NCBI GenBank assembly: GCA_008933995.1
Contig: WARS01000016.1
Location: 12,788,848 to 12,852,847 of the forward strand
Origin: Datnioides undecimradiatus
Lineage: Eukaryota; Chordata; Actinopteri; Lobotiformes; Datnioididae
Direction: 5' to 3'
DNA length: 64,000 nt
Part shown: positions 17,940 to 59,616 of the stretch, piece by piece
How the letters are laid out: each line of letters opens with the position of its first letter
How positions within the stretch are numbered: the stretch's first letter is position 1
The notes under the pieces: generated by a model
The model's database searches: none
Seen by the model: only the letters and a program-made list of their open reading frames with translations
What the model was told of the DNA's origin: nothing
Made by a program: the position numbers and the translations under genes

Positions 17940-20151
17940 GGAACATACACAGAGGAAAGGATTTTATGTCCATGTGACAACGCTTTTCACACACACTTGT
18001 GCACAACAGTTCAAGGCTACACTTTCTGCTCTTTTAGCTCTTAGTCCTCTACAATTCACTACAGATGTGAACACAAGCATGAAGGAGCAGCACCAGCTTC
18101 TTACATCTTACTTGACTCAGAGTGTTTAAATTAGTCCCATCGCTGCAACGATGCACCTCAGGCAGCAGCAATTCCCTTGATTCTGCACACACCAGAGAAA
18201 AGATAAACAGGCTAAAAACTTGTAAAACTCTTAAAATACACTTAAAAATGTCTGAAAATGATATTTACTTCCATCTCTACTTCACTGATCCTGTTTGTGC
18301 TACCTGCTATAAAATGTATAGAGTTGACGGGTGTGTGTTCCTCTGTCTACACTAAGAAGGATGTATTAATGAAGCACAGTTTGTTGCAGAGCTCAGGAAC
18401 ATTGGTGCATACATACTGAATGACTCCTATGAGACAGTGGAAAGTTTAGTTGACATTGTTGACATTTTTCATCTAAATAGCTTCAGTGTTGCTTGCATGT
18501 GATGGCCTGCAGTGCCAGATGGCTGCAATAGAAACTTGTTTCTGTACAGGACCAAAAACAGCAACCTGAGCTCAGTGTTGTGTTCACTGTAACTAACTGC
18601 AAAACATTTTACTTCTTTTGACAGTAAGACTGTCTGCTGAGTTCAGTAGATGCATATTTCAGTACACAAAAGTTAAATCAAATTATTTATTTGTTGCCTT
18701 TGTCATTATTTCTAATTGTCATTGTTTGTGGAGGGTTTGTTTCTTTTCTGATTGTTTGGGATGTTGCTGGTTTAACTGGTGCTCTGTTTTCCTTAGCATT
18801 ACTGTTTTCTGTGAGAAGAAAAAATAGATTTTTGTGTGAACTTGCATGGGTTTTGGTCTGTATTAAATTCAGTATGAAACATCCAGCATGTTTCCTGGTT
18901 CTTTTTAGCTACACAAGTAATGCCTGCGTTTTAAATAAATCCCCTACTAAAAATGCAATGACTATAAAATAGTATAATAGTTTCACAGGGGTACACATAT
19001 CACATTAAACTAGAAGGAGAGGTACAAGGAAGAATTGTTCATTAATGAGACTTCCCACAGTTTCCTCAGCCCACCCTGCAGTACGGACCCATTTGCCAAG
19101 TGGGTGGGCTCACATGAATTGATACAGTGCAGCTATTATTTCAGAAACGGATTACGTCTTCCTCTTATTTGAAACAGCCAGCTAAAGAGAGAGCTGCGTC
19201 TCTCACCATGTGCCAAACCATCCAGCAATGAGGAACACCAAAGGAAATGAGCATCACGTAAGCCAAGAGCATAAAAGATAGAAACAGGCTCAATAAAAAC
19301 GCGCGTGCTTGCTTCATTTTTACATTAAGAATATTTCAGTTCAAAACAGTCTCACCTGCTGTGGTCATTTAAACATCAGCTGTAAAACATAACGAACAGT
19401 AATGGAGAGTGCTTTACTTGGTACAACTTTTGCTCCAACATACTTTTACTTTTATTTATGTGGCAGCAATAGTTACTTTGAGGATTACATATCTTTCATA
19501 TAACACATGATCAGCTAAGTGAAATATGAATCTGCTACAGATGAAACTGCCAGTATATTTAGTTTAGCTTAGGTCAAAAGTGTTTGCAACCAATGCAATC
19601 TCAGTACTTCATAGCTTATAATTAATATATGCTATGAGACATTTTTGATCCAGCAAACTATAATAGGCATACTATAAAACATATTTAATAGAATACAGAT
19701 TAAATATAATATAAAATTTAGCAAAGCCGATGTCATACATAAAAAGGTAACTAAAACAGGAAGTGAAACCCAGTCATCTTTACCAAAATTAAAGCATGTG
19801 CCTATTTGTATAAACGTTGTCTTTTGATGATTATTATGGTGCCCTCAGTCTCACCAATTAATTTTCATTATCCTACTGTACCATTCACAATCTGAACCTG
19901 ACATTCAGAGTTTGTTGCTATAGGTATGTCTCTGCTGCTGTTTTTGATGACTTCTGATGAAGACAGACTATTAGCGGCAGCAGCAGCAGGAGGAGGAGAA
20001 AGTTTAGAGTGGGAGGCTAAAAAGTCAAAGATGCAGTCAGACACACAACTTTTTTGTGAATGAAAGGGGAGACGGGGGTCTGCGCTGTCTTGTCCCAGAC
20101 AGGCAGTAGTCTCGCCTGTTGGGGCCGCCGTGCCACCGGACCCTCTGGACC
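17940..20151 (+). other. zglp1 3' UTR and foxd upstream region
   Basis: The first kilobase is probably zglp1 3' UTR, with a candidate AATAAA at 18934-18939. Short hydrophobic open frames in this T-rich part have no family resemblance. The remainder, to the forkhead gene, contains no exon. A short CAG/GGAGGA run (about 19976-20000) lies about 150-180 bp before the forkhead start, probably in its 5' UTR or core promoter. No TATA box was identified. Confidence 0.45.
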
Positions 20152-21069
20152 ATGACTTTGGACGGCAAACTCATGGACGAGACGGACATTGACGTGGAGG
20201 GAAAGACGGAGTGTGGTGAAGATGTGAAGAACACCGGGTTCTCGGTGTTCGGGAAGAGTAACGCCGAGTATGAGCAAAGCGCTTCTTCCTTCGCTACTGA
20301 AAACCGGGAGCAAGGAGACTTTGCAGTGCGGCTTCAGGATGGTCCAGGCGGGAGAGCCTCCCCGGTGAAGCCCCCGTACTCTTACATCGCTCTCATCACC
20401 ATGGCCATCCTCCAGAGCCCGAAAAAGAGACTCACCCTTAGTGAGATATGTGACTTTATTAGCCAGCGCTTTGTGTATTACCGGGAGAAGTTCCCTGCGT
20501 GGCAAAACTCAATCCGTCACAACCTGTCTTTAAATGACTGCTTTGTCAAAATGCCCCGCGAGCCTGGAAATCCTGGAAAGGGAAACTATTGGACCCTAGA
20601 CCCTATGTCGGCTGATATGTTTGAAAACGGGAGTTTTCTTCGGCGTAGGAAACGCTTCAAGAGGCAGCATTTCTATTTTGGCGCTTTGAAGGACTCCAGG
20701 GCGCAGGAGCGCACCCTGATGCCTGTTTTTCCTCTCCTTGGAGCGCACAGGATGGGCTCATGTCTCCAGGGTCCTGACTTGTTTCACGACCTCGGCATAA
20801 GAAGTCGTTTAAGCCCCCACACTAGTCCCGGCATCCCACCTGTAAGCAGCATCATACCTGCGTTGTCCTCGCTCCTATCCAAGAATTTCCCTTCTTGTGT
20901 TACCTTTGAGCATTTCGAGCCGGGACGCTGCGCCGCTGTCCCATCTCTGGCCCCGAACTCCTCGTTCATGCCTCCTGTCTCGCTGCACGGAACAATTCCC
21001 AACTACCATGTTTCTCACATGTCCGGTTTCCCCACTGGGATCTTGAAAGTTTCGTCTAATTCAGTTTAA
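20152..21069 (+). CDS. foxd5: Forkhead transcription factor, FOXD class (likely foxd5)
   Basis: This is a single-exon gene of 305 aa, as expected for FOXD genes. The forkhead (winged helix) domain spans about residues 72-171, beginning [14 protein letters not shown], with recognition helix [17 protein letters not shown] and a basic end [14 protein letters not shown] proteins are nuclear DNA-binding regulators of early neural, mesodermal and neural-crest fate. The start chosen (context accATGa) gives MTLDGK plus an acidic DIDVEG motif, both typical of FOXD N-termini; an ATG 33 bases upstream is in frame but lacks this match. The C-terminus is short and I cannot see a clear FSIxxII-type Groucho-binding motif. 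Shortness and divergent tail favour foxd5 (the fish member of the FOXD4 group) over foxd1, foxd2 or foxd3, but the paralogue call is uncertain; FOXD class membership is secure. Confidence 0.85.
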
Positions 21070-25583: not shown

Positions 25584-25589
25584 TTTATT
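25584..25589 (-). terminator. Poly(A) signal overlapping the neu3 stop codon
   Basis: AATAAA on the minus strand; its first A is the last base of the TAA stop. If used, the 3' UTR would be only about 15-25 nt. Other minus-strand hexamers lie near 25347, so a longer UTR is equally possible. Confidence 0.35.
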
Positions 25590-26868
25590 TACTCCACAAT
25601 GCCCTGCTTGACCTGTCTGTAGTTAAATACTACAGAGGCAATTTGCTCAGTTTCCTTCTGCTCGCCACACTCCATTAGGCATGCAAACCAACCATGGTCA
25701 GTGTAAGCCAGGTCGGAGTAACCACTGGGTCCCTCGTTGATGATCCAGGGTTTACTCCATGCATTTGGATCCTTTGGATATTCATTTAGATACACTCCTA
25801 ACTGAAGCCTTTTGGACTTGTTGTTTGGGTGGGTGAAGAGCAGCTTGTTTGGTTTCTGGCTTGGATCATCACCTGAATGTGCTGGAAAGGAGACCACACT
25901 TCCCTGACAGCCCCAACCTGTTTCCACAAGCTTTTTAGCACTGCACGGCTTGGAGATATCATTTGTATAACTTTCACTGATAGCTTCTTCTCGATAGCCT
26001 CCCCTTCTTCGGGCATTGCAGTAGATGAAGCTGTTGTCTTTATCATCAAAAAACTCTGCCATTTCACACTCAAGTGACTCATTGTTAAGCATTTTTCCCA
26101 TCTTCCATGTTTTACCAGAATCCTCACTGTACAGTGGGAGTGCATGTGGACGAGTTTTCTTACATTTGAAACAGAGGCAATTTGAGCTGCAGCAGGAAAC
26201 ATAAGCATAAGTTGGAACAATCAATGTACCGCTCCTCATTTGAAGACCGTGGCCTGGCCCGACGGCAAATGTAGCCCACATCTTGATTTCACCCAGTGTG
26301 TCAGTCAAATCAGTCACATTACTCCAACTTTGCCCAAGATCTGTGCTTGTGATGTAGCAGAGACGGGCCTTATTGTCGAAATTTTGTATCTGCCAGCTCT
26401 CTGAGACGGTGCCTTTAACACAAATGAAAAACAGGAAAAGTGTTTTGCTGTTTTTCTCATACACTGGGCAGGGGTTCATAGGACGGTGTCCATCAATATG
26501 TGCCTCTTCCACTGTTCTGAGCTCAGACCACTAGAAAGGAGATTGCTGAAATGTGAGTAAACAAAACAGAGAAGAGTTGCAGAGCAATAACGTATATTCA
26601 CAAGCAATTCAGAAATGAAACGTTTGTTTGAGATAATTACCTCAATCGTCCCCTCAGAGCTTTCCTCTGCCTTCCTCAGTTTTCCTGTTTTCATAACCAG
26701 CATTTTTGTGCTGGTATCGTCTGTCTTCTCCCTCTGCTCTGCAAAAGCTAGAAGAGTTTCACTTTCTCTCTCGTAGAAAAGAGCAGGAATCCTATAAACC
26801 CATTCACTATCAGACTTAAAGACGGTTTGCTTCTGTAGCTGAAAATCCCTTAAAGTCATGTCATCCAT
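25589..26868 (-). CDS. neu3: Neu3-type membrane-associated sialidase, 2 coding exons
   Basis: Exo-alpha-sialidase (GH33) that removes sialic acid, in NEU3 mainly from gangliosides at the plasma membrane. Coding exons are 26868-26641 and 26530-25589, joined in phase 0, giving 389 aa. Seen: the substrate-binding Arg in YRIP (residues 25-28), Asp boxes STDLGQSW (138-145) and SEDSGKTW (211-218), the YAY pair (184-186), an Arg-rich NARRR segment (248-252), SKRLQLGVYL (315-324) and the presumed nucleophile Tyr in SGYSDLAY (Y347). No signal peptide or membrane helix is present, as usual for NEU3. The start ATG has a strong context (accATGg). A Cys-rich loop (residues 189-199) is unusual. The poly(A)-type hexamer AATAAA begins on the last base of the stop codon. 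Teleosts carry several neu3 paralogues, so the number suffix is not assigned. Confidence 0.9.
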
Positions 26869-42943: not shown

Positions 42944-44827
42944 GTAAGTATTTTGTTTAATAAGTTTTTTTCTATTTTTTTATACCGGCAGAAGTGTGTG
43001 TGTGGTTTGCAGGCACTAAAGTCTATTTAATTTAACTGTATTTATTATATTTATGATAATGACAACAACAACAAAATCAATCAGACAGGGTTTTCTGTCA
43101 TTTGAGCCATGTGTCATTTTAAAATGTCCTTCAGTGAAAGTGAACTCTATGTTCTACTGAATACTGGTGTAGTATAATGGGGGATGTTAATGGTAAATTG
43201 ATAAAATAAGATGAACATTTTCAAATTAAGTTTTGTCAGCTGGTTTGTTGGAGGTGGTTAACCATATTATTAATTTCTATTTTTCGTTACAATGTAGTGG
43301 TTAATGTAATTATATAATATATGGCTTAAAAACAGTATAAGACAATAACACAGAAATGGATTCAAACAAAAGATCGGACATTGGGCAAATTTAAAATCTA
43401 GTTATTAGTTATAAGAGTATTTTAATTGAATTTATAGCTTTATTTGATAAAAGATTTTAGGAAGAACATTGTGTAAACAATTGTGCCAGAGAATATTAGC
43501 TTGATGACGATTAAAACGCTGTATCATAGAAATTGCAGCAATATATGTAGGGGGTCAGACTGGCTGTGTTTCAGGGCAACCACTGCAAAATGAATTAGCT
43601 TTAAAATTTGTGCAAAAATAATAATCCATAACTTCATTTAGTTCTTCTTACTGGGATTGTATGATTTGTATGACAGTAAATGCAACACTACTGCAAAATT
43701 AGATGTTAAAAAGTGTTGCTCGTACATCATTATGAAAGAAGGAACTGTCCAAAATAAAGTCATGACCACTAGAAAAGACAAAACAGGAACATTCACAATT
43801 GCAAAACCTGACAAATCATAAGAGTGTTAAGCCTTTGCAGGGCAGAGTAAAAACAAATGTCTCTCTGCGTAATGTAGAGGACCACATCCCGTCAGGGCTG
43901 TAGTGAGAGATGAATATGGACTTTTCCATGAGCTAAATACACATTTTAAACTGGACCAACTTCCACTGAGAATACTAACATGAATTACATTTTAGTGCAG
44001 GCTTGTGAGATGGATCTGCAAAATTTTGACCATTGAGCACATTTCCATATCAAATTCCTTTTACTAAATATAACAAATATATATCCTGAGTCTTTTTTTC
44101 GTTTTCTTTTGTTCAACAGACTCTTTGATATCAATCCAATCTTCAGCCGTTGGGGACGTTTTGAATGCTTAAAAGGATTTTGACTCACATCCTCAAAATA
44201 CAACCAGACAGACAGACAGATTCATTAAGAGCAGGCACTGGAGACTTGTTCAAAAATCTAGACTCTGCTGCTCAGGATGTACTATAAGAAAACCCCACAC
44301 CAAATCAGACCACAACAACCACCTCGGCTCTACACTGCACACTGCACGAAACCACAGAACTAGTTGTCCATTAAGGATTGCGGGGACTACACAAAACACA
44401 CATGAAAACACTTGTTTCTTTGGCATGTTTTGTCACATTGTAATGAAGGAATGAATTTACGTCTGCTTGCACTCTGTATACAGCCAGCAGAGGTGGGAAG
44501 GACAGGAGACTCACATACTGAGAACATAATGGATTTCAGGTTGGCCAAAAGAAAATCTACAGTTTGAGTGAGGTAGAGCAGCAACGTATTACATAATCTG
44601 CCTGAGCAAAGAGAGGGGAAATAAAGAGTTATAAACCGCCTATATGGACAAGACACATTCACTTGTCAAGGTGAGGTTTGAAGGGCTCTGTAAGAGAAAT
44701 TGTAGGTTGTTTACATGAACATGTTAGTTTCTGTCACACACATATAGACACTGGGACAAGACAAACGTGCAGCTGGAAGAACCACAAGCATACCACTGAC
44801 AGGGATTCCCCCAGACAATTCACCACC

Positions 44828-47800
44828 ATGATGGAGAAGCTAAATCCCGCCGGCACACCTGCCTCACCCCCCGACCTACCTCGCTCCTCCTCCTCTTCCT
44901 CTGCCTCCTCTCCATCCTGCACCCCTGTAGAGCAGCACAGTCCTCTCCAGTACAAGACATCATCAAAAGCCGTCAGCAGCCCACAGTCTACAAACAAGAC
45001 AGTGCACGAGGGACACGCGGATGTGCCCGTTGCCACGACAGCAGTGTTAAACAGTCACCACACAGATACAACTGCTGCACCTGAGCCCATCGTCATGGAG
45101 ACCAAGGAGGAGGAGGAGGAGAGGCAAGGACGACCAACTTCCACCATATCCCCAGTAGCCAGTGGGTCCCCAACTCTTTCAACTCCACCTCCACTTCTCC
45201 CCGCACCAGCCAAGACTTCTCCATGCCCTATTCCACCTCCCAACTCCAGTGTGTCCTTCCCTTCGTCTTCATCATCCTCTCCTCTTCCTCCACATATTCC
45301 TGTCATCAGCCTTGGTCACAGCAAACCACCTCTCCCGCTCACCAATACCCCTTTGACTGCCCTCCACCCGATTCCTAATCTCCTACATGGGGCCCATGGA
45401 GACCTTCGCCGTAGTCAGCTGACCTGCCTGCCAGTTTCCAGCCCTGGAGCTACTGGGTCATCTGTATGTTCAGGGGGTCCATCAGCCACCTCTCCAGGAC
45501 CACTGTTGGCTCAGCAGTACCTGTCTACACACCCCTTTTTCACCAGGTGAGGTTTCGCTCATACAGACAGTTTTTGAAATCCTCGCGATCCTTAACAGTT
45601 TATCTGAATAATGGTTTGGTACATAAAGAGGCAAAATGATAATTTACGTCTTTGTGATCTGGTTAATTCTTTTGCAACTCCTTCTTTTTATTTTGCGACC
45701 ACATTGAGGGCTTTTGACCAAAGAGTCGGGTACCAAAACACCAGCAGACAGAACTGACAATGTCATCCAGTCTCCAAATGTTAAGGCTGGACTGAATAAT
45801 TGCGTTGTTGTGAAATGTATTTCATGACCAGTTAAATAACTCATTGAACTGCATCCTTGCATTTGAACATGCAAGAAATTATAGGAAATCTTTTAATAAC
45901 TTGAGCCTTCAGCATAACTTCATGCCAAATATTAATACCACCTTCACCTTCTTTTGGCATTCAAACCGATGTGCGACTCCAAACTATAACTATGAAATAC
46001 CACAATACTCTTTCCTGGGATGTTACTAGTCATGATGCCCCTTCGTTGGTAACTACGGCAAGTTTCTGTTTCATAGGAAACCTCAACTGCTGGGATTTCA
46101 TGACTTCCCACTGTGATTAATAGTCGCTGTGGTGCACGGTTATGTGAAACTGACAGCAGGATGTGTGCTGTTATAAAGGGACTTCACATTTCTCACGTTA
46201 AATTCACTCATCAGAATGTTTGCAGCTTAATGCAAGTTGCATCCTGGATTTTTTTTTATTGTGCATTTAGTACCAAAAATCCAAATACATAATCACATAA
46301 TTTAAAACTATATGTTTTCTTTTTGAATGCTGCTAAGTTTAGTTGTTGAAGGGACAAAAAGCAACAGAACAGAAGTCTTAAGGCTCTTTTTGGGCACAAA
46401 GAGTTGGCAACTCTTGGTTTAGATTCATGAAGAAAGGCATTTATTTGCAGACATTATCAAAGCTTTCCTACTGTTTATCTATTCTCTACTCCAAAAAGCT
46501 TTTCTGTAACAGAGCAGCATCAGTTAAAAGCAGGACTTTTTTTACTACATCTATGGTTCCACCATCTGTCATGGAGGTCTGGGAATAAGATGCTCTCCTC
46601 ACTTCTCTCTCGTCTGTTTGTAGCGGCAAGCATTGATCTATTTCACCCCTCCCTGCAGTAGAATCAGCCAGTAACAAGACTTAATGAGACTGGGCTAAAA
46701 CTCTGCATGCACACTCAATCAATGCCACCAACATAATCACACCTCAGCTAATGGCTTCCACCATCTTCTTGATTTCTCCATCCGCTCTCTATTTAAGAGA
46801 GGAGGTGCTGGAGCGACTTAACATCTTCAACTGCTTTCTGTATTTATCTGTAGTGTGTGTTGTCAGATGATTGTAAAAGGAGCTGCATTAATGTAATTTT
46901 TTCTCACATGTTGTGTTTTCATCTCCAGTTCTTACCTGGGACCCTCAGGAGGAAACTATGGTGTCATCAACAACAGCCGGATCAAGAGAAGGCCCTCAAC
47001 ACACTTTGAGATGGAGCTCAGCGAATGTGAGTTTCTGTGCGACTAAATAAACAATCAGATGTAAGAGTCATATTGAAAGCATTCAAAGAATGAAGTATTC
47101 TGTATTTTTTACCATTTTCAACAGCATTGATGTGTCCATCTGTCTCTCACTTCTTTCCTACTGCATTATGCTGTCTGTGGCTTTTAGCCCAAATCCTAGT
47201 TGTTCCTCTGAAGAACATAAATGTAAAAAAATAAGTGATTGACACATATTTATTTTAAATAGGTTAAATAATTCCTTAAACTAGCCACTCACTGTTCTTT
47301 TAAATAAGCATTATTCAAATAGAGTAATAGTGCATTTGTTGCCTGGGGTACACAGCTCTGTGCAACAACGTGGCTCTCTGACATGTTTTTAATGGTTGTA
47401 ATTGAGGATTAAGGCACTAATCAGTTTTGGCCACACAACAATTGTTTATATCATTTCATTCTTATTTTTCTATAAGATTTGTTTGCAAAAAAAGTGTTTA
47501 CATGTTCACTACAGGCCCTCCTCAGAAAATCGCACGCCGTGTCTTTACCAACAGCCGTGAACGCTGGCGACAGCAGAACGTGAACGGGGCCTTCTCCGAG
47601 CTAAGAAAACTCATTCCCACACACCCGCCTGACAAGAAGCTCAGCAAGAATGAAATCCTCCGTCTGGCTGTGAAGTACATTAACTTCTTGGTCACTCTGC
47701 TCAATGACCAGGCGCAGGACAAGAGCAGGGACTCAGCTGAGGACGAGCCTGAGGACGAAAGCGCCACGGCTGGGTTGGACAGTAACAAACTGAACCCACT

Positions 47801-48062
47801 TTTTCAGTGTGACACCTCTCCCCCTCCTCCCCGTGCTGCCCCGCCATCATCAACCCATCCTGCTTTGGCGACCGTCCACAGAGACAGAGACTCAACCGAT
47901 TCAATCATTGCTCTGGCTAACTCCCCAGCAACGTCCAGTTGCTATGGTGACACGGACAGTGAGGAGAGCTTCGGGGCTAAGACCTCTTTGGTGACCCATG
48001 GCATTCTGGGAAAGGTTAAGGGTCAGATAAGGATGGTTGCAGCCACAAATGACGAGCGGTGA
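44828..48062 (+). CDS. lyl1: bHLH transcription factor LYL1, 3 coding exons
   Basis: LYL1 is a TAL-family class II bHLH factor that pairs with E proteins, binds E-boxes with GATA/LMO2/LDB1 partners and acts in blood stem cells and vessels. Coding exons are 44828-45546, 46929-47026 and 47515-48062, all GT-AG and in phase, giving 454 aa. The bHLH spans residues 280-335 ([20 protein letters not shown], then helix 2 ending [10 protein letters not shown]). LYL1 rather than TAL1 is favoured by [13 protein letters not shown] (residues 156-168), the [10 protein letters not shown] junction and the SRIKRRPS block in exon 2. The N-terminal ~150 residues are Ser/Pro-rich with an acidic EEEEE run, longer than in human LYL1. 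The start follows CACCACC, and a second ATG comes immediately after. Exon 2 and 3 borders match the TAL-family gene structure. Poly(A) candidates lie at 48461-48466 and 49148-49153. Confidence 0.93.
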
Positions 48063-51060: not shown

Positions 51061-52995
51061 TAATATGTACTGACTTCACAGGTATCAGCTGCATCTAGCT
51101 ACCAACACAAGCACGTAGGTGAAGACTGAACATGTGTATGTGTCGTGTGTTACATCTTGAAACCTACCAGGAACTTACTTATTATATTTCTATTCGTCAG
51201 TATTTTCTTTACCCTCTCATATCCACATTCATTCATCGCGCAGTCATACAACATTCACACAGGCCAGATTGTTCTTTTACTCAGGCTGAAACTTTTTAAC
51301 GACAGGTGCTGATTTTCACAGCTAAGACTGAAAAGGCCTTTTTTGGCAGAGGACATTTTGATGAAAGCAAAAAAGTGTTACTGATCACATTAAACACGCA
51401 GTAGCTGACTGTATCAGACACTTACTTATGTACTTATTTTCTGATTCAACAGGTACAGGTCAACAAAGTGTTTGATTTGTAGTCGTGCTGATAAATATCT
51501 GTGTCTTTAGTTACTTTTTGCTCCCCTTTGTTCAGCAGATTGTCTCAAGCTGTAATTTAACCATTAACGGCTGCCTGCTGTGGTCAAAAAATGATAAACG
51601 CAGTGTTTAACCTGCTGTAATGCTGCAGATTCAGGTGATACTTTTCAGTAGGTCTATTAAAATGAGTGATACCTTTCACATTGTCATTTTCTGTTTTTCT
51701 TGCTGTGACATGTTTATGAAAAAGGCATTTTTACAACAGTGTGCATCCAGTAACGTGTTTGCTTTTATGTGTAATTGTGGTACATATAAGAATTTGCTTC
51801 ATGCTCTGTACACACCTTAAAATCACATTCAATGTGAAAATATTAAGACTGTGTTCTTATTTTTGAATTGAAACCTGTAATTCCCTGTCCTATATTATCC
51901 ATCCAACGAATGGGGTGAATGTACTGAAAACTACTAAAAATCACAGTTTTTGCCTAAGTTCAGCTCTTTTAGAGAAAAGGTAAAGCCGACAGAAAACTTT
52001 GTATTAAATATTGTGATGATGCGCAATATTGGTCAAGAAAGTGAAACCTTAGACATTGGGTGTTAACCTTCTCTCCTTCTTCAGATACAGGAGGCCATGC
52101 AGGGTGACTCTGACCAGTCTGCATCTTAGAGATAATGCCTTTGCCTCCACCCCTCTGTTGTGCCCCTCTTGCCACCAGAGTCACACCCACATGTGTACAG
52201 AAATACCAGCAGCTCTGTTTCACCATTCACACACCAAACTAAACCTGCACATCCCATGAGAGGAACCGAGGTGGTCCTAAAGCAGCTTTACTGTTGCTTG
52301 CTTAATGCAGAGGTTTAAACAAAGTATAACACAAACAAAGTGAGCATAGATATATTTACAATTTTGTCAAATTATAAAACTGTTCTTCATATTTGCATCA
52401 AATGTGCAATGAGACTTTTTCAAATGTTAAATTACAACTCAAAAACAGACACAATATTATACTGAACATGTTTAATTAGGTGCTGAAGAAAATTACATCA
52501 GAAGGAGATAAGTGTTAAATGACCAATATACTGTGTATTTTCAATATGACTTACTAAATAACTTACAGAAATTCACTTTAAATTTACGTTAACAGATGGA
52601 CCATAAATAATAATGATTGGTGGTTTACAAGCTTTGGCAAAACTAATAATTGCATTTTCATGTTCTTACATAATTTGATGCATCTTGCACATATGTATAT
52701 GACAAACACCTAAATACTTGACATTTGACCCTACAAATCAATTTGGCCTAGTTTAGCTAAATTAATTTAGTCAAAATGTGTAGAATACTTACTCCAGTTT
52801 GACAATGGGTTTTTGAAATTAACTTGTGACTTGTGTTATATTTGTGTAGAACGAAAAAAGGACAGAAGTACTAATAGAAAAGTGTCTGTGAAGATCCAGT
52901 AAATTTGCCAGCATTTTTCAATTTTACACTCTGATGGTGCTAATTCAGAAGAAATAAACATCTTTACATTTGTTGTACAATTTATTTACATCCAT

Positions 52996-55900
52996 TCACT
53001 CAGTTTTCAACACTTTCTCTCCTTGTTTCACCAGAGAGTCCATGCTGTCGTCCACTGTTCTCTGCACACTTTTTGCAGCATCGTTTGTCGTTTCAAGCGT
53101 ATTTTTGTTGCTGAATTTTCTTCTGCCCACCTCAGATACCGCCGATCCAGCAGCTGCCCCGACAGCTCCGCCGATCGCACCACCCAAAAATACGCCAAGC
53201 ACCAGACCCAGCAATGCACCTGCTATGACTACCTTGGGCATCTGTTTAGCTGTGGCCCCAATTTTCTCCCATGCTGAGCTCTCGGCCACCATTTTGGCCC
53301 CTGTTTTGGCCCCGGAGCCCAACTTCCCCCACACTGGACTCTGTGCCACCGTCTTTGCACCAGCTCCGATTCCAGCTCCAACTCGCACAGAGCCGTCAGC
53401 CACTAGTTTTGCTCCAGTTTTGGCTCCGGATCCTATATTTTCCCACATAGGACTCTGGGCCAAATTTTTTGCTCTGGCCCCAATTTCAGCTCCAACACGC
53501 ACAGAACTGTCTGCCACAAGTTTGGCCCCTGAACCAACTTTCCCCCACATGGGACTTGCTGCTGCTGCCTTTGCTCCAGATCCCACCCAAGCAGAACCAT
53601 CCACCACTACCTTGGGAACTCTGTCTCCTACTAGTTTGGACACGTGTCCGGCACCAGCTCCCACCTTCCCCCACACAGAGCTATCGACTACCATTTTCTG
53701 GACATTTTGGGCTCCACTGCCGACTGTCCCCCACACAGGACTACTTGTCACCTTCTTTGCCCCCTCACCGACCCACACAGAGCCATCTGCCCACAGCCTG
53801 GGTAAATTCTTTACACCAGACTCCATCTTCTCCATCATGGAACGGAGAAGAGAAGGGGACATGGTAGAAAGTGTGACAGGAGGAATGCTCTCAATATTCA
53901 TGGTTCTTACACTCATCTCAGCCTCATCCCTTGTTTTTTCAATCTCATCCTGTCTCACTTCCTCTTCTGCTTCAGCCACAGACTGCATGTAGGGATAAAG
54001 TACCCGTCTGTCAGAGCTGAGCTGTCCAGCAGATCCTCGTCTTTCCTCATCTAGCGTTTTCCCTTTTCTCTCCCTTGCTATCTCCACCTGCCTTTCCCTT
54101 ACTCTTTTCTCCGCCTCCTGAAAAGCAGGACAAGAATAGCACTGTCCTCCGGCTTCCTTCACCGTCTGCTCCACCTTCTCTAGCAGCTCTGCCACATTCC
54201 TCCTGTCTTTTGAACCTCCTCCCTTCTCCATCACATGAAACCTGTCCCCACATTTCTCCACGAGCTTTAACAAATCCCCTCGATGACCAGCGATGTATGC
54301 CTCCACGCTATCGTTTCCAGCCTTCCCGCTCTCCCTCAGCCGGTCTGCATGAGTAAAGACAACCAGAGTGTGTCTCTGGACTGCCTCTGGGCCAAAAATA
54401 CACTCAAGGGCTTTGAGAGCCTGCAGCTCAGTCTTTGCAGGCTGGTCTAAGGGGACGCAGAGAAGGAAGGCGTGAGGACCGGGAGTGGACAAAGTCACAC
54501 AGGATGAGATCTGAGCTCGCACCTCATCTGGAGTTTTCTCTGAGTTGAACCAGTCTGGGGTATCCACCACTGCCACCTGCAGGGGAGAGAGGACACATTA
54601 AGCGTTGGTTCATGGGAAATCAGCCAGACTGTACTGTTTCATAACACAAAACAAGAAGACCGTGTCAAAGATTAGATGTTTGGGGTTTGACACATGTTGG
54701 AATGTGTGGAAGGAAAATGAAAGCAAAAGACATTTTAATAACATACTCGTCTTCCTTCAACCAGAGCTTTCTTTTTCTCACACTCCAGAGTGATTGCTGT
54801 GAGGCTTTCCGGGTGTGACTCAAACTCCCCCTGCCCTATTATGTCATTGCCAGTTGCACTCTTCCCTGCTCCAGATCGTCCAAGCAGCACCAGACGCAGC
54901 TCCGGAGAGGATGAGGAGGAGGAGGATGAGGCAAATGAGGAGGGAGGGGAGGAGAAGGTCGGCGAGGAAGGTGAAGAGGAGAAGACAGGTGAATGAGAAG
55001 TAGAGGTTGGAGATGCCTCAGGGGATCTCTCTTCAAAGCTGTTGATTCTGTGGTGAACTGACAACAAACGAGTGGTGATTTAATATGAAAAATGACAATC
55101 AAACCTGGAAGTTACCTTTTCATTGACACAATATGAGTCAGTGAGGTCCCGTGACTTACAAGTAGTGACCACTTTCGGAGATGATGATTTTTCCTCAGAC
55201 ATTTGTGAGAGTATAGCTCCATCTACAGAGGAGAAACAGTAAACAGGAGTCCTGTTCATTTTCTGCTCGCACTCATTCTTTTTCTTTATTTTTTTCTGTC
55301 AAATTGTGACAGAAAAACAACATATGGTACAAAAATTGGTTCCCTAATCAGTTTATCAGCTCTATAAGCATTTACCTGCATTTAGTCTGAAACTGGGCGT
55401 CTTCTTCAGCTGCCTGTCATTATGGGGCTCTGAATATGATTGTTGCTCTGCTGCCGGAGTTGAATGAAGCCCATTAGACACCAGGCTCACACCCACTCTT
55501 CCCTCTGTCACATCCAGCTCTTCTCTTCTCCTCCTCTCCAAGACAGTGCTGTACTCCTCTCCTCGACTGACTCTCCGCTGTGTTTCTGTGTTTGGGATGT
55601 GCGTTGAAGCGCCCGTCTCTCTTCTGTCCTCCTTTTGAGCTCTGAAACTTTCCATAAGTTCTCGTTTTCTGTCTTTGATCCGTTTCTCGAGCTCTCTCTC
55701 CTGGGCCGTTTTCATATAGTATACTCCATTTGTCTTCACCATATTGTCCACCTGTGACATAAATAAAAAAAAAATAGACACGATTAGAAACCTAATGTGA
55801 TGTGAAATGTGAAAATCACAGTGTCTTGTTTCATAATTCTTGCATTTGTCTTCACTGTGGAGTGAATTCCCATATTACTCAGGACTACATGTAGCCTGAT

Positions 55901-57425
55901 CATTAATACCCAAACTGGTCCTGAATACGGCTGGGTGTGATTGTATGAGAGTGAAACAGGGCGTTGGTGGGAAAAAAACAACAGACAAAGTAATTACAAC
56001 AGAGGGAGACAACAGGCTGCGACACAGCAGGAGATAATTTCACTTGCTGAAAAAGTCACAAAATCCGCTGTGTCTCATTTCACGTTTTGTTTTTTAAGTA
56101 TACAGAACTGTATACAGACCATGGTATATTGCTCATGGTCAGTATGAACACAGAATCTGTTGACATTTCACATTGTCAAGTTTGTGTGCAAACTCCTCTC
56201 TTGATACTCTTCTGTTTACTGTGCTCTTTCTTAACTTCTCACCTTCTCCAGCAGCTCGCAGACCTGATCCCTGTCCTGCCGCTGACGATTATTGATGACG
56301 TGGAACCTCCCACCGCATTGCTCGATTATCTGCCTCAAGCCTGGGTGTTCTTTCTGCAGGTATTCCTGTGGAAAACAAGATTTCATTAGGAATGGGTTAA
56401 TTCTGCTCTCCGTTCTTGCAAATGACAGCTGATCAGTCCATGTTGGACACAGTGAATAGTGAGGAAAAACTGGAAGTAAGTCTGAGGGAGATGCAGTTTA
56501 CACAAAATGATGCATCATTGTCTGAAAGACGTTAACAAGACCTGAGCTGAAAGGTTTTTGTTCTCTTTCTTTCAGTGTGTCACAAAAATGCACAAATCAT
56601 TTCAAAATTAAATACCAAAGCACAATTTAAAATGTATCCATATCATAAAACAATGGTTGAAATCAGTTAAGACAGCAGACTGAAAAGAAGGTAGAAGGTA
56701 TTTTGTACTTGTACAGACCTGCAGCCTCCAAAAGTCACAATTCTGTGAAGTTCATGGTATCAAAATACATAAAATATCTCAGCACTTCCCAGACACTAAG
56801 TGTGCAAATCTAATACCTCCACTTTTCTTCCCATCAGGTAGTCTCCACATGTCAGCAGGACAAGGGTGTGATCCATAGCCTCCTCCCCAAATGCCTCCTC
56901 CAGCAACGCAGGAACACGACCCTCCATCTGTGAAGGGTGGAGGAAGGGACAACATAAAAATGTATTATTTGAGCAAATATTAGGACTTGTTTGAATACTA
57001 TATACTAAGAAGCAGGAATGTAGTTATAGTCATTTACATTCAAAATTGATGCCAAAACACAAGTGGAAGTGTGAACAGAGACTACTACTAACCTCTGTAA
57101 ACTGGCTAACAGGCACCAGCAGCAAAATGGCGTGTGGGCCGGGTGCTACCAGAGTCATCGCTCGCTCTGTCTCCTTCTTGACACTGTCCTCCATCTTGCC
57201 GCCAGTCCAGTACCATCTTGGCGCCTCCACCAGGGTCACTCTCCTGCCATCTGAGACGCCCTGTCGCAGCTGGCAGCTCCTGGAGGCACTGGGAGAGACA
57301 GGGGACAACTGGCCCAGGATTGTGTCTGCTGATGATGTCTTCCCACATCCAATGTTGCCCAAAAGGACAAGTCTGAGCTCTGGGGGCGAGGACCCATAGT
57401 AGCTTCCAGTCAGGTGTTCACTCAT
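52996..57425 (-). CDS. GIMAP/AIG1-type GTPase with two G domains and a C-terminal repeat tail
   Basis: AIG1 GTPases (GIMAPs) are immune-linked, often membrane or lipid-droplet associated proteins that self-assemble through their G domains. Coding exons: 57425-57093, 56927-56817, 56365-56243, 55751-55376, 55222-55160, 55057-54747 and 54576-52996. All are GT-AG and phase-compatible, giving 965 aa. Domain 1 (about 15-190) has P-loop GNIGCGKT (23-30), EAPR in place of DTPG, TCGD (137-140) and RFHVINN. A charged helical linker follows (about 195-240), then a Ser-rich stretch. Domain 2 (about 385-575) has GRSGAGKS (395-402), DTPD (444-447), THAD (514-517) and RFHVMEK. Next come a charged helix, ten short repeats (700-887) and a Gly/Ala hydrophobic tail (888-923). 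A noncoding exon probably ends at 57850. AATAAA (52986-52981) lies just after the stop. Two tandem genes are possible: exon 5 contains an internal MSEEK start, like MSEH in exon 1. Confidence 0.8.
53125..53232 (-). other. Glycine-zipper-like hydrophobic tail of the GIMAP-type protein
   Basis: Residues about 888-923 read IAGALLGLVLGVFLGGAI followed by GGAVGAAAGSAV. Glycines recur every third or fourth residue in a long uncharged stretch, which fits a transmembrane helix or helical hairpin. It is followed by a basic GRRKF segment. Several GIMAPs end in a hydrophobic anchor, so a membrane role is plausible. Confidence 0.7.
53233..53796 (-). repeat. Alternating ~19-residue coding repeats in the GIMAP-type gene
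   Basis: Protein residues about 700-887 contain ten related units of 15-28 residues. The approximate pattern is [VA]-x-S-[SPG]-[VMA]-[WR]-x2-[IV]-G-x-G-A-K, often followed by TGAKL or similar. Examples are SPMWENIGSGAKTGAKL and ADGSVRVGAGIGAGAK. Neighbouring units alternate between Trp and Arg at the same position in the C-terminal half. A Ser-Gly-Ala-Lys core with one aromatic per unit suggests an amphipathic, membrane- or lipid-surface-binding array; that is inference. The opposite strand is open for 340 codons here only because of this composition. Confidence 0.85.
55291..55317. repeat. 11-bp inverted repeat in GIMAP-type gene intron
   Basis: Arms 55291-55301 and 55307-55317 (TTTTTCTGTCA and its complement) flank a 5-nt loop. 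It lies between coding exons 4 and 5 (55376 and 55222). No known element is recognised. Confidence 0.7.
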
Positions 57426-59616
57426 GGCTGAGAGGGGAGAAAGGTAAAAGAAGTGGTTAAATGTGCTGTTGAGATACATTCAGTCCCACAGGTTACTGGC
57501 TCTGTTTGGCAGCAAAAAAACAAAAAGGTGTGTTGTAAGAACTTGTGTTCATACATGTGACTTTAAACAAAGGTTTGTCTGTGAGATGAACATGAAACCA
57601 CATGCAAATAGAACAGGAAAAACGGAAGATTGGACACGTTGTGTAAGAGTTTAATTGTCTAATATGTGGCTAAGACAAGTCCAGGATACTTCTAAAAATA
57701 AACATGAAAGTTGTGCTGTCTGTCTTGTCAGTCGCTGTGAGTATGAGAGCCTATTTTCTCTGTTCGAGTCCAATAGTTAAAAGAACAGTCTCATTTAGTT
57801 TCCACTCAGAATTACATTTCTTTCCTACATATTCATGCTGTCCTCTTACCTGTTGCGCATGAGTTAACAAGAACTGAGGTGATTGATAATAGCTATGCTC
57901 TTAGACAGAGCTTTCATTTTATTGAACTTCTTTGTAACTGCATCCCTTTTTTCTCAGTGTGCCTGATAAGACCACACCTCACCAGTCCTGTCCAACTACA
58001 TTCTGCCCGAACCTTTATATTTGGACTGATATGCATACATGCACAGAACACAACATTCACCAACAAATACACACAAAATCCAAGGCTGAACATGTGGCAC
58101 CACCCAACAGGGTAGTATTTTATAAAGACTACAGACATGTGGCACAAAGGTGAAATGTAAACTTGAACCAATAACAAGTATCAACAGTGTAACTAGACAA
58201 CAGACACCTGCACAACTGACACACAGCTGGTATTAAAACCACTATGGTGCACATGACAGAGTTTAAATAGAAACATGGCCAGAAAACTTTGTCGATCAGT
58301 AATAAATATATTCGCTGCTTCAGTTAAACTCACACAAAAGTATTCTTCAATAATAAAGTAGTTGAACAGAGTTGAGTAAACAGATGTTTTATTCAAACAG
58401 TAAGACACATACTTACTCAGTTGTTTGAGGTGTCTGAAGATGTGTTCATGTATGGTCTCCTCTGTTCAACTGGCACTGAATTATGTCTCTTATCCAGACA
58501 ACTTCAGTACATGTCGACTTCTAATGGTGAGGTTCATCCCAGGAAGCAAGCCGTCTCACCACTCCCAATTCTGAACACATGCACACTTGAGCGATCTCTT
58601 AAATATATTTTTGCACGCACAACAGGTTTCTTTGTCTGCAGGTTGCTGAGCATTCCAAGATGGGGCGGAGGAGGCGTATCCTGCGGCACATGTGAATCAT
58701 TCTGCCTGAGTTTTATCTACCACACCCATTAAGTGTCAAAACTCATGGATGAGCTTCAAGGTTTAGACTCATTAAAATGGTTGATAATTGGTCAAATGTC
58801 TGTAAAGGTTTTGATATTCTGCAGTTGTCATCTCTAATTAAGAATAATGTCATGACACAGGCAGACACTAGTTTACAATGTAAAGTAAATCAAAGAGGAA
58901 CATTGTGTTGTGTGTCATAGCGACAGACATTAACAATATAGTGCTTTGCAAAGTGTGCGACATCCTTCAAGCCTCAAGCTTCAGTTCTTTATTATGTATT
59001 AACTGAAAACAAATGAACAGGTGCTGGTTTTCAGGGCACTTAGGGACATTTAATAGACCTCATTATAAAGTTGTCTTACAATAACATTTGTATAGAAATA
59101 ATGACTTAAGTTCTAACCTGTGGTCAACTGGTAATTTATAAAACACTGAAATTACTCTGCAATAGTGTTGCAGGTTTGGATGCACACATCCTATAAACTG
59201 GGAGCAGAATTTGAAAGTAACTAATACATGGCCACTCTTTGCCTCTGTGTGAAAGAGAAAGTGAGAGACAAACCAGTTATTCTGTGAGGTGCATGTGCAG
59301 CAGAAATTAAAAACAGAAGTAGACACTGTTTATATGTCCAGTGACACAGAGGGAGAGCGCCTGGCTAAAAAAAAGAAAGTAACATAATTCAATCTTCAGG
59401 CACATGTTTCAGCAACTAGTGCAAGAAAAGAATCTTAACATTCAAAGGTGAACTTGCTTATTCGGAATACAAAAAATATATCTTATACTGCAGACAAAAG
59501 TAATTATTTACAAACAAAAAAGAGGTTATATTTATTTTCCAAATCTAAACTAATTTATCATGTCTCCACGCATATTAGAACATGCTGTATACTTTTAGTG
59601 GCGTCTTCGTCATCGC
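57426..59616. other. 5' flank of the GIMAP-type gene and 3' flank of the HMGXB4-like gene
   Basis: No coding exon was found. On the minus strand a clean donor (CAACAG|GTAAGAG, exon end 57850) could end the noncoding first exon of the GIMAP-type gene, splicing to the acceptor at 57429-57428 two bases before its ATG. The remaining DNA is AT-rich with short unrelated open frames. Confidence 0.45.

Follow-up and report, generated by a model that had tools for sequence, protein, structure and literature searches.

We analysed a gene of the GIMAP family in a window of 64,000 nucleotides from the teleost Datnioides undecimradiatus (GenBank assembly GCA_008933995.1, contig WARS01000016.1, positions 12,788,848 to 12,852,847) and found that its predicted product carries, behind two AIG1-type G domains, an array of ten short repeat units followed by a hydrophobic anchor with regularly spaced glycines (a glycine zipper). 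A paralog on another contig of the same genome (C489) has the same anchor preceded by a single unit. As the array was found only at this locus, as the paralog joins the same anchor to one unit and as the two loci share neighbouring genes, tandem expansion of a single juxtamembrane unit is the most likely origin of the array. To the fuller reading we give about an even chance: the protein would be a tail-anchored teleost GIMAP in which a single Trp-containing amphipathic helix was multiplied to ten after gene duplication, so that a nucleotide switch is combined with a carpet of helices.

The gene occupies positions 57425-52996 of the window on the minus strand, where seven exons form a 965-codon open frame; all introns have GT/AG borders and their phases are 0, 0, 0, 1, 1 and 0. 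The original prediction, made from the letters of the sequence, had proposed seven phase-matched exons encoding about 965 amino acids, and this model was reproduced exactly in its coordinates, borders and phases. The spliced protein contains two stretches that match the AIG1 family in Pfam (PF04548, E = 5.6e-86, 287.7 bits against a cut-off of 27), and exon 7 as well as domain 1 matched the solved structures of GIMAP4, 7, 5, 2 and 1 (PDB chains), in support of the predicted assignment to the GIMAPs with two AIG1 domains. Exons of this gene are among the 86 AIG1 profile matches in the genome, which represent exons or domains and not genes.

The repeat array covers amino acids 694-887 (194 amino acids; 53233..53814, minus strand). 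It consists of ten units of 15-21 amino acids, most of them 19-20, and one fragment of 8 amino acids between units; the unit borders were cut by eye. A rough consensus of the unit is S-x-[W/R]-[GE]-K-[VIL]-G-x-G-A-K. Self-similarity was strongest at lags of 38, 20 and 34 (z = 8.8, 6.4 and 5.8), above the maximum of 4.9 obtained from 1000 shuffles (lags 5-59), which bears out the repeat array that had been predicted. Tandem Repeats Finder independently reported a unit of 114 bases, present in 2.1 copies, at 53285-53529. The key position holds Trp in eight of the ten units and Arg in the remaining two; the alternation of Trp and Arg that the original prediction described is seen in units 5-9 (W-R-W-R-W) but does not extend across the full array. 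Glycine and alanine make up 32% of the array, its net charge is +14, and it contains both Trp and Pro.

The copies of the unit are under purifying selection. The clearest duplicates are units 6-7 and 8-9 (38 amino acids or 114 nucleotides; 53293..53520, minus strand), between which 20 of the 28 differences affect the third position of a codon (Fisher p = 7.6e-7; chi-square over codon positions p = 1e-4). The number of synonymous changes per site (dS) is 1.14 and that of nonsynonymous changes (dN) 0.14; together with the excess at third positions, this indicates that the protein sequence of the units was kept while silent sites diverged. The proportion of nonsynonymous differences (pN) was lower than that of synonymous differences (pS) in all eight unit comparisons, which overlap and comprise few sites each. 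An assembly error in the array is unlikely because the units differ by a dS of about 1.

We searched the genome from which the window comes (581 Mb, 497 contigs), scoring the five best candidates for the tail and the three best for the array. The tail as query matched itself, the C489 paralog (E = 2.4e-7) and one sequence with an internal stop (E = 0.02), and the array alone matched itself and a chance sequence (E = 4.75). Thus, among the candidates scored in this one genome, no second copy of the array was found, in keeping with the unusual tail that had been described. A search of viral contigs gave no match, and a pattern search of genome contigs returned nine matches, none of which is a relative. 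Among the literature matches listed, no title or abstract opening (supplements and most subscription journals lie outside this coverage) describes such a tail.

The paralog (C489:4556212-4564300) has a 288-amino-acid open frame that starts at the intron position of exon 7, before the G3 motif of domain 2. Over the G domain and the following coil it is 43% identical to exon 7 (272 columns, E = 8e-54). A second match, which is ungapped, is 54 amino acids long (48% identity, E = 3.4e-11) and spans one unit and the glycine-zipper anchor; here SLWEKLTGWMKWLPTIVRREALLG aligns against SAWEKIGATAKQMPKVVIAGALLG, with the same anchor. In the G-domain tree, domain 2 is paired with the paralog at a support of 0.984, and domain 1 lies far from both. 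The upstream P-loop exon of the paralog reads GKR instead of GKS/T and its G3 motif SCP instead of DTP, so by its motifs the paralog is likely a pseudo-GTPase with an intact last exon. The comparison comprises this one genome, and the paralog may have lost units, which counts against an expansion at the window locus; we infer expansion here rather than loss there.

The two loci also share a collinear block. A gene that we take to be hmgxb4-like adjoins both GIMAPs in the same orientation (tblastx), and one of its exons matches the genome at just two places, each next to one of the GIMAPs. For the forkhead gene of the window (20110-21069), the best other match among the 71 listed has the same orientation and is at C489:4535056, a distance of about 22 kb from the paralog. 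Because this block of three genes is collinear, the sequence points to segmental or whole-genome duplicates, with the teleost duplication as the obvious candidate for the source of the two loci. A basic helix-loop-helix (bHLH) gene of the window, presumably tal1-like, had no match on C489 among the 45 listed and would therefore have been lost there.

How unusual this architecture is was judged from 27 stretches of the genome that cover part of the AIG1 matches; motif counts include 8 further, overlapping cuts. Of 14 bacteria and archaea used as controls, 12 also gave matches to the AIG1 model (7 over the cut-off), so the weakest matches in the fish may be other GTPases. In the compared loci, no other open reading frame (ORF) has two or more copies of the strict unit motif, which occurs four times in the window tail and not at all in the C489 paralog. 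A looser motif was counted ten times in the window tail and at most three times in any other ORF. Three G domains are present in five ORFs of the compared loci and two G domains in two. Among 23 PGPH-type ORFs, 20 have a readable tail, and about 10 of these tails, judged by eye, resemble charged coiled coils. Four ORFs (L017, one in L020, L021 and L027) combine a Gly/Ala-rich tail (fraction 0.28-0.36) with a hydrophobic stretch. Since ORFs with several G domains and Gly/Ala-rich tails both recur, neither two G domains nor a glycine-rich anchor can be called rare in this genome, whereas the array is. The rarity claimed for the architecture therefore holds for the array and not for multiple G domains (seven ORFs) or glycine-rich tails.

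A tblastn comparison uncorrected for composition also tied the window tail to that of L027, which is Gly/Ala-rich (E = 4.7e-5), a point against the fuller reading; L027 was not listed among the five best candidates of the genome search with the tail. L027 (6244-8268, minus strand, of the stretch C489:5377000-5386500) is a single-G GIMAP with a tail of about 400 amino acids, much of it Gly/Ala-rich (G+A 0.36), and is nearest to domain 2 after the C489 paralog and domain 1. Elsewhere, a pair of AIG1 matches at C5:447385-452706, separated by about 4.2 kb, each lie in a listed open frame of 1816 amino acids and, the frames being of the same length, are probably in one open frame. GIMAP8-like ORFs that have three G domains are clustered in the stretches C328:16242000-16273500 and C129:3598500-3627500; their aligned first and second domains have a changed G3 (E, K or N at the Asp).

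The paralog has a single G domain with degenerate motifs, so domain 1 of the window might be a separate gene. In that case a soluble single-G GIMAP (exons 1-4) would lie next to a domain-2 GIMAP with the repeat tail (exons 5-7), an arrangement that we consider unlikely. It is consistent with the paralog, which has the domain-2 part only: tblastn with the whole protein (E up to 10) detected no domain-1 match in the interval that separates it from the hmgxb4-like gene upstream. The two domains are also deeply diverged (distance 1.46) with different intron positions, and exon 5 has an in-frame Met. However, exons 4, 5 and 6 join with canonical sites and matching phase, introns 4 and 5 measure 153 and 102 bases and leave scant room for a terminator and a promoter, exon 6 has no Met ahead of the P-loop, and ORFs with two or three G domains occur seven times in the compared loci. 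We infer that exons 1-4 and 5-7 are joined in one mRNA.

The two G domains differ in their motifs. Domain 2 has GKS, DTP and T/D; domain 1 has GKT and T/D, but its G3 motif reads EAP. The region between G3 and G4 contains APGPHA (domain 1) or TPGPHA (domain 2), and we take this PGPHA region to be the conserved GIMAP box. A Trp two residues past the G3 proline is common to domain 1, domain 2 and the C489 paralog and is present in none of the 33 other aligned domains of this genome. The same three have Gln where GIMAP7 has the arginine of LGRYT. This arginine, not a defining feature across all GIMAPs, is found in 19 of the 33 other domains. It is presumably GIMAP7 R103, the catalytic finger, a role that Schwefel reportedly described for R103 in 2013. 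GIMAP7 provides an arginine finger or stimulates GIMAP2 (PMC8066113, PMC8201404). Because Gln replaces the arginine in both domains, GTP hydrolysis is predicted to be slow or dependent on a partner.

The anchor (amino acids 888-919; 53137..53232, minus strand) is homologous to that of the paralog. Kyte-Doolittle windows of 19 amino acids with values above 1.6 begin at amino acids 884-898 and 901, confirming the Gly-spaced hydrophobic segment that was predicted for the tail. The 46 amino acids past the anchor (52999..53136, minus strand) have an early basic RRK and are otherwise polar.

In the array itself, a helical signal at 100 degrees was detected (z = 4.0 on the Eisenberg scale, where this angle was the best of 21, and z = 2.4 with the Fauchere-Pliska scale). 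On the Heliquest scale, the array has a mean hydrophobic moment of 0.24 (shuffles 0.184, z = 2.4) and a mean hydrophobicity of 0.30. Five hand-chosen windows of 18 amino acids have moments of 0.31-0.41 and whole units 0.21-0.44; the single helix of the paralog, also hand-chosen, has a moment of 0.47 and a hydrophobicity of 0.94. The most economical reading of these values would be that a single strong interfacial helix gave rise to many weak ones and that strength was traded for number. The possible resemblance to the amphipathic repeats of lipid-surface proteins that the original prediction had suggested is compatible with the helical signal, the charge of +14 and a moment like that of perilipin 4; the 11-mer period of perilipins is missing, and Trp and Pro are present. 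A repeat of the eleven-mer lipid type (perilipins, synucleins, apolipoproteins) was rejected on its period, as 11 is outside the top ten lags and 22 reaches only z = 2.4.

Several of the measured properties weigh against a carpet of helices. Only 38% of the 18-amino-acid windows of the array pass the cut D > 0.68, which is the one used for septins (PMC11238149), and 6% exceed a moment of 0.4. The Pro and Gly residues would be expected to interrupt long helices. AlphaFold, run without relatives, gave no usable model (predicted local distance difference test, pLDDT, 43.8 and 37.5). This modest, Pro/Gly-interrupted amphipathicity, with 62% of windows failing the D cut, would fit an array that is a structural spacer or a tandem motif for protein binding, with docking through Trp and Lys, in which case the glycine zipper alone would touch the membrane. 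The conservation of the unit sequence also fits a docking motif. We regard a spacer or docking role as a possibility to be taken seriously, though a doubtful one: the single unit of the paralog is a hydrophobic, Trp-rich amphipathic segment placed right before the anchor, as would be expected of an interfacial helix, and the net charge of the array is +14.

A further point against helices is the signal of the array at 180 degrees (z = 3.3), which leaves an extended or beta form possible. A pore or a beta/amyloid-like assembly, formed through the Gly-Ala-rich units and the glycine zipper, would agree with this extended-strand periodicity and with the content of Gly and Ala, as well as with two sub-threshold matches, of the tail to DUF456 (21.2 bits against a cut-off of 29.4) and of the whole protein to DUF1269 (14.7 against 26.9), which we take to be Gly-rich membrane families. 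Such an assembly is nevertheless very improbable, as the helical periodicity is at least equal in strength, no known domain on the tail exceeded the Pfam cut-off, and the comparison of the tail with the sequences of solved structures (PDB) gave nothing beyond chance (best E = 1.5).

In the fuller reading, the glycine-zipper segment would anchor the GIMAP by its tail in an internal membrane, and the single juxtamembrane Trp helix, multiplied in tandem after gene duplication, would have become ten weak basic helices. The C-terminal G domain, which keeps its nucleotide-binding motifs, would act as the switch; the N-terminal one, with its changed G3, is probably a dimerisation or regulatory module. 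The nucleotide-bound protein may self-associate through its G domains, like GIMAP2, and the anchors may pack in the membrane through their glycines. With its charge of +14, the ten-helix carpet would rest against the acidic, cytosol-facing leaflet of an organelle or of a lipid droplet, where it would provide avidity, and perhaps curvature sensing, beyond that of a single helix; the protein may have an immune role. A bolder proposal, which we hold to be conceivable but improbable, is that, following the duplication of a fish genome, one GIMAP copy gained the ten-fold tandem carpet and paired it with the second G domain to make up a GTP-switched, perilipin-4-like coat of an immune-cell organelle and that the sister gene kept one helix and lost its GTPase motifs.

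Known systems resemble the window protein in part. Like GIMAP2, which is found on lipid droplets and dimerises with GTP (PMC8201404), it has an AIG1 G domain and a C-terminal hydrophobic anchor, which in GIMAP2 is a double hydrophobic segment. GIMAP2 differs in its single G domain, in having no repeat array mentioned in the available text of that paper and, by alignment, in retaining the LGRYT arginine where the window gene has Gln. More than one AIG1 domain is shared with GIMAP8, which has three (PMC4201521), and with the multi-G GIMAPs of this genome, whose readable tails are by eye coiled-coil-like, some with a hydrophobic end. The C489 paralog shares the domain-2 sequence, intron position, glycine-zipper anchor and one unit, and differs in its one G domain, in GKR and SCP, and in having one unit against ten.

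Perilipin 4, which is not known to have a G domain, also has tandem, weakly amphipathic, net-positive repeats. Its moment is 0.257, computed for a 3-11 helix (PMC5889406, Table 1), compared with 0.24 at 100 degrees here; a construct of 66 amino acids was cytosolic and longer constructs were on lipid droplets (PMC5889406). According to the same paper, its repeats are 33-mers of 11-mers almost without aromatic residues, whereas the window units are mostly 19-20 amino acids long and contain Trp and Pro. Septins, relatives in the same GTPase class, have amphipathic helices in their terminal extensions; as far as the available text of PMC11238149 describes them, these helices are separate, sometimes several per septin, with no tandem array before a hydrophobic anchor.

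The remaining features of the gene, all on the minus strand, are as follows. Exon 1 (amino acids 1-111; 57093..57425) contains the start codon and the first part of G domain 1, with the P-loop GNIGCGKT and the changed G3 (EAPRW), as located by the AIG1 match and the GIMAP7 alignment. G domain 1 continues in exon 2 (amino acids 112-148; 56817..56927) and ends in exon 3 (amino acids 149-189; 56243..56365). Exon 4 (amino acids 190-315; 55376..55751) encodes a charged linker, judged helical by eye, and exon 5 (55160..55222), of 63 nucleotides and symmetric phase 1/1, encodes a further part of the linker that could be skipped in frame. A Ser-rich linker and the P-loop of G domain 2 (GRSGAGKS) are in exon 6 (amino acids 336-439; 54747..55057). 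Exon 7 (amino acids 440-965 and the TGA stop; 52996..54576) holds the remainder of G domain 2 (DTPDW, THAD), the coil, the repeat array, the anchor and the C-terminus. A probable poly(A) signal, AATAAA (52981..52986), begins 10 bases past the stop. Because the start codon sits directly behind a splice-acceptor sequence (57428..57447), the transcript should begin with one or more 5' non-coding exons that lie further upstream.

An antisense ORF of 344 amino acids (52958-53992, plus strand) overlaps the tail exon and is probably a shadow of the sense codons. We rejected it because the splice sites, the G domain and the paralog favour the sense strand; pN/pS over the six frames is lowest in the sense frame (0.21). 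An antisense frame comes near it at 0.29, and the ratio alone is therefore insufficient to reject the ORF. A CAF1 ribonuclease was likewise discarded: an ORF that reads into an intron scored 24.7 against a Pfam cut-off of 24.2, whereas the spliced protein gave E = 0.09, under the cut-off.

The GIMAP gene (52996-57425) lies about 5 kb downstream of the tal1-like gene (44675-48062), and a sialidase-like gene (BNR_2; 25589-26530, minus strand) lies between the forkhead and tal1-like genes. TAL1 activates the GIMAP super-enhancer in T-cell acute lymphoblastic leukaemia (T-ALL) cells (PMC8201404). Enhancers shared with the tal1-like gene are a conceivable driver of the GIMAP gene in the window. Interferon control was considered and rejected: the window has six exact sites like the interferon-stimulated response element (1.1 expected), none of them from 52,048 to the window end, and the one nearest to the gene (52037) is on its 3' side.

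To our knowledge, how GIMAPs choose and shape their membranes is unresolved. The genome of D. undecimradiatus holds a natural pair, duplicates that have the same anchor with one or with ten interfacial units, which bears on whether the number of units sets the choice of organelle or the strength of membrane binding. In a vertebrate gene, the pair also marks the starting point and the end point of a route from a single helix to a repeat domain whose copies are under purifying selection. If the bolder proposal is true, a repeat-based membrane coat would have evolved inside the GIMAP family.

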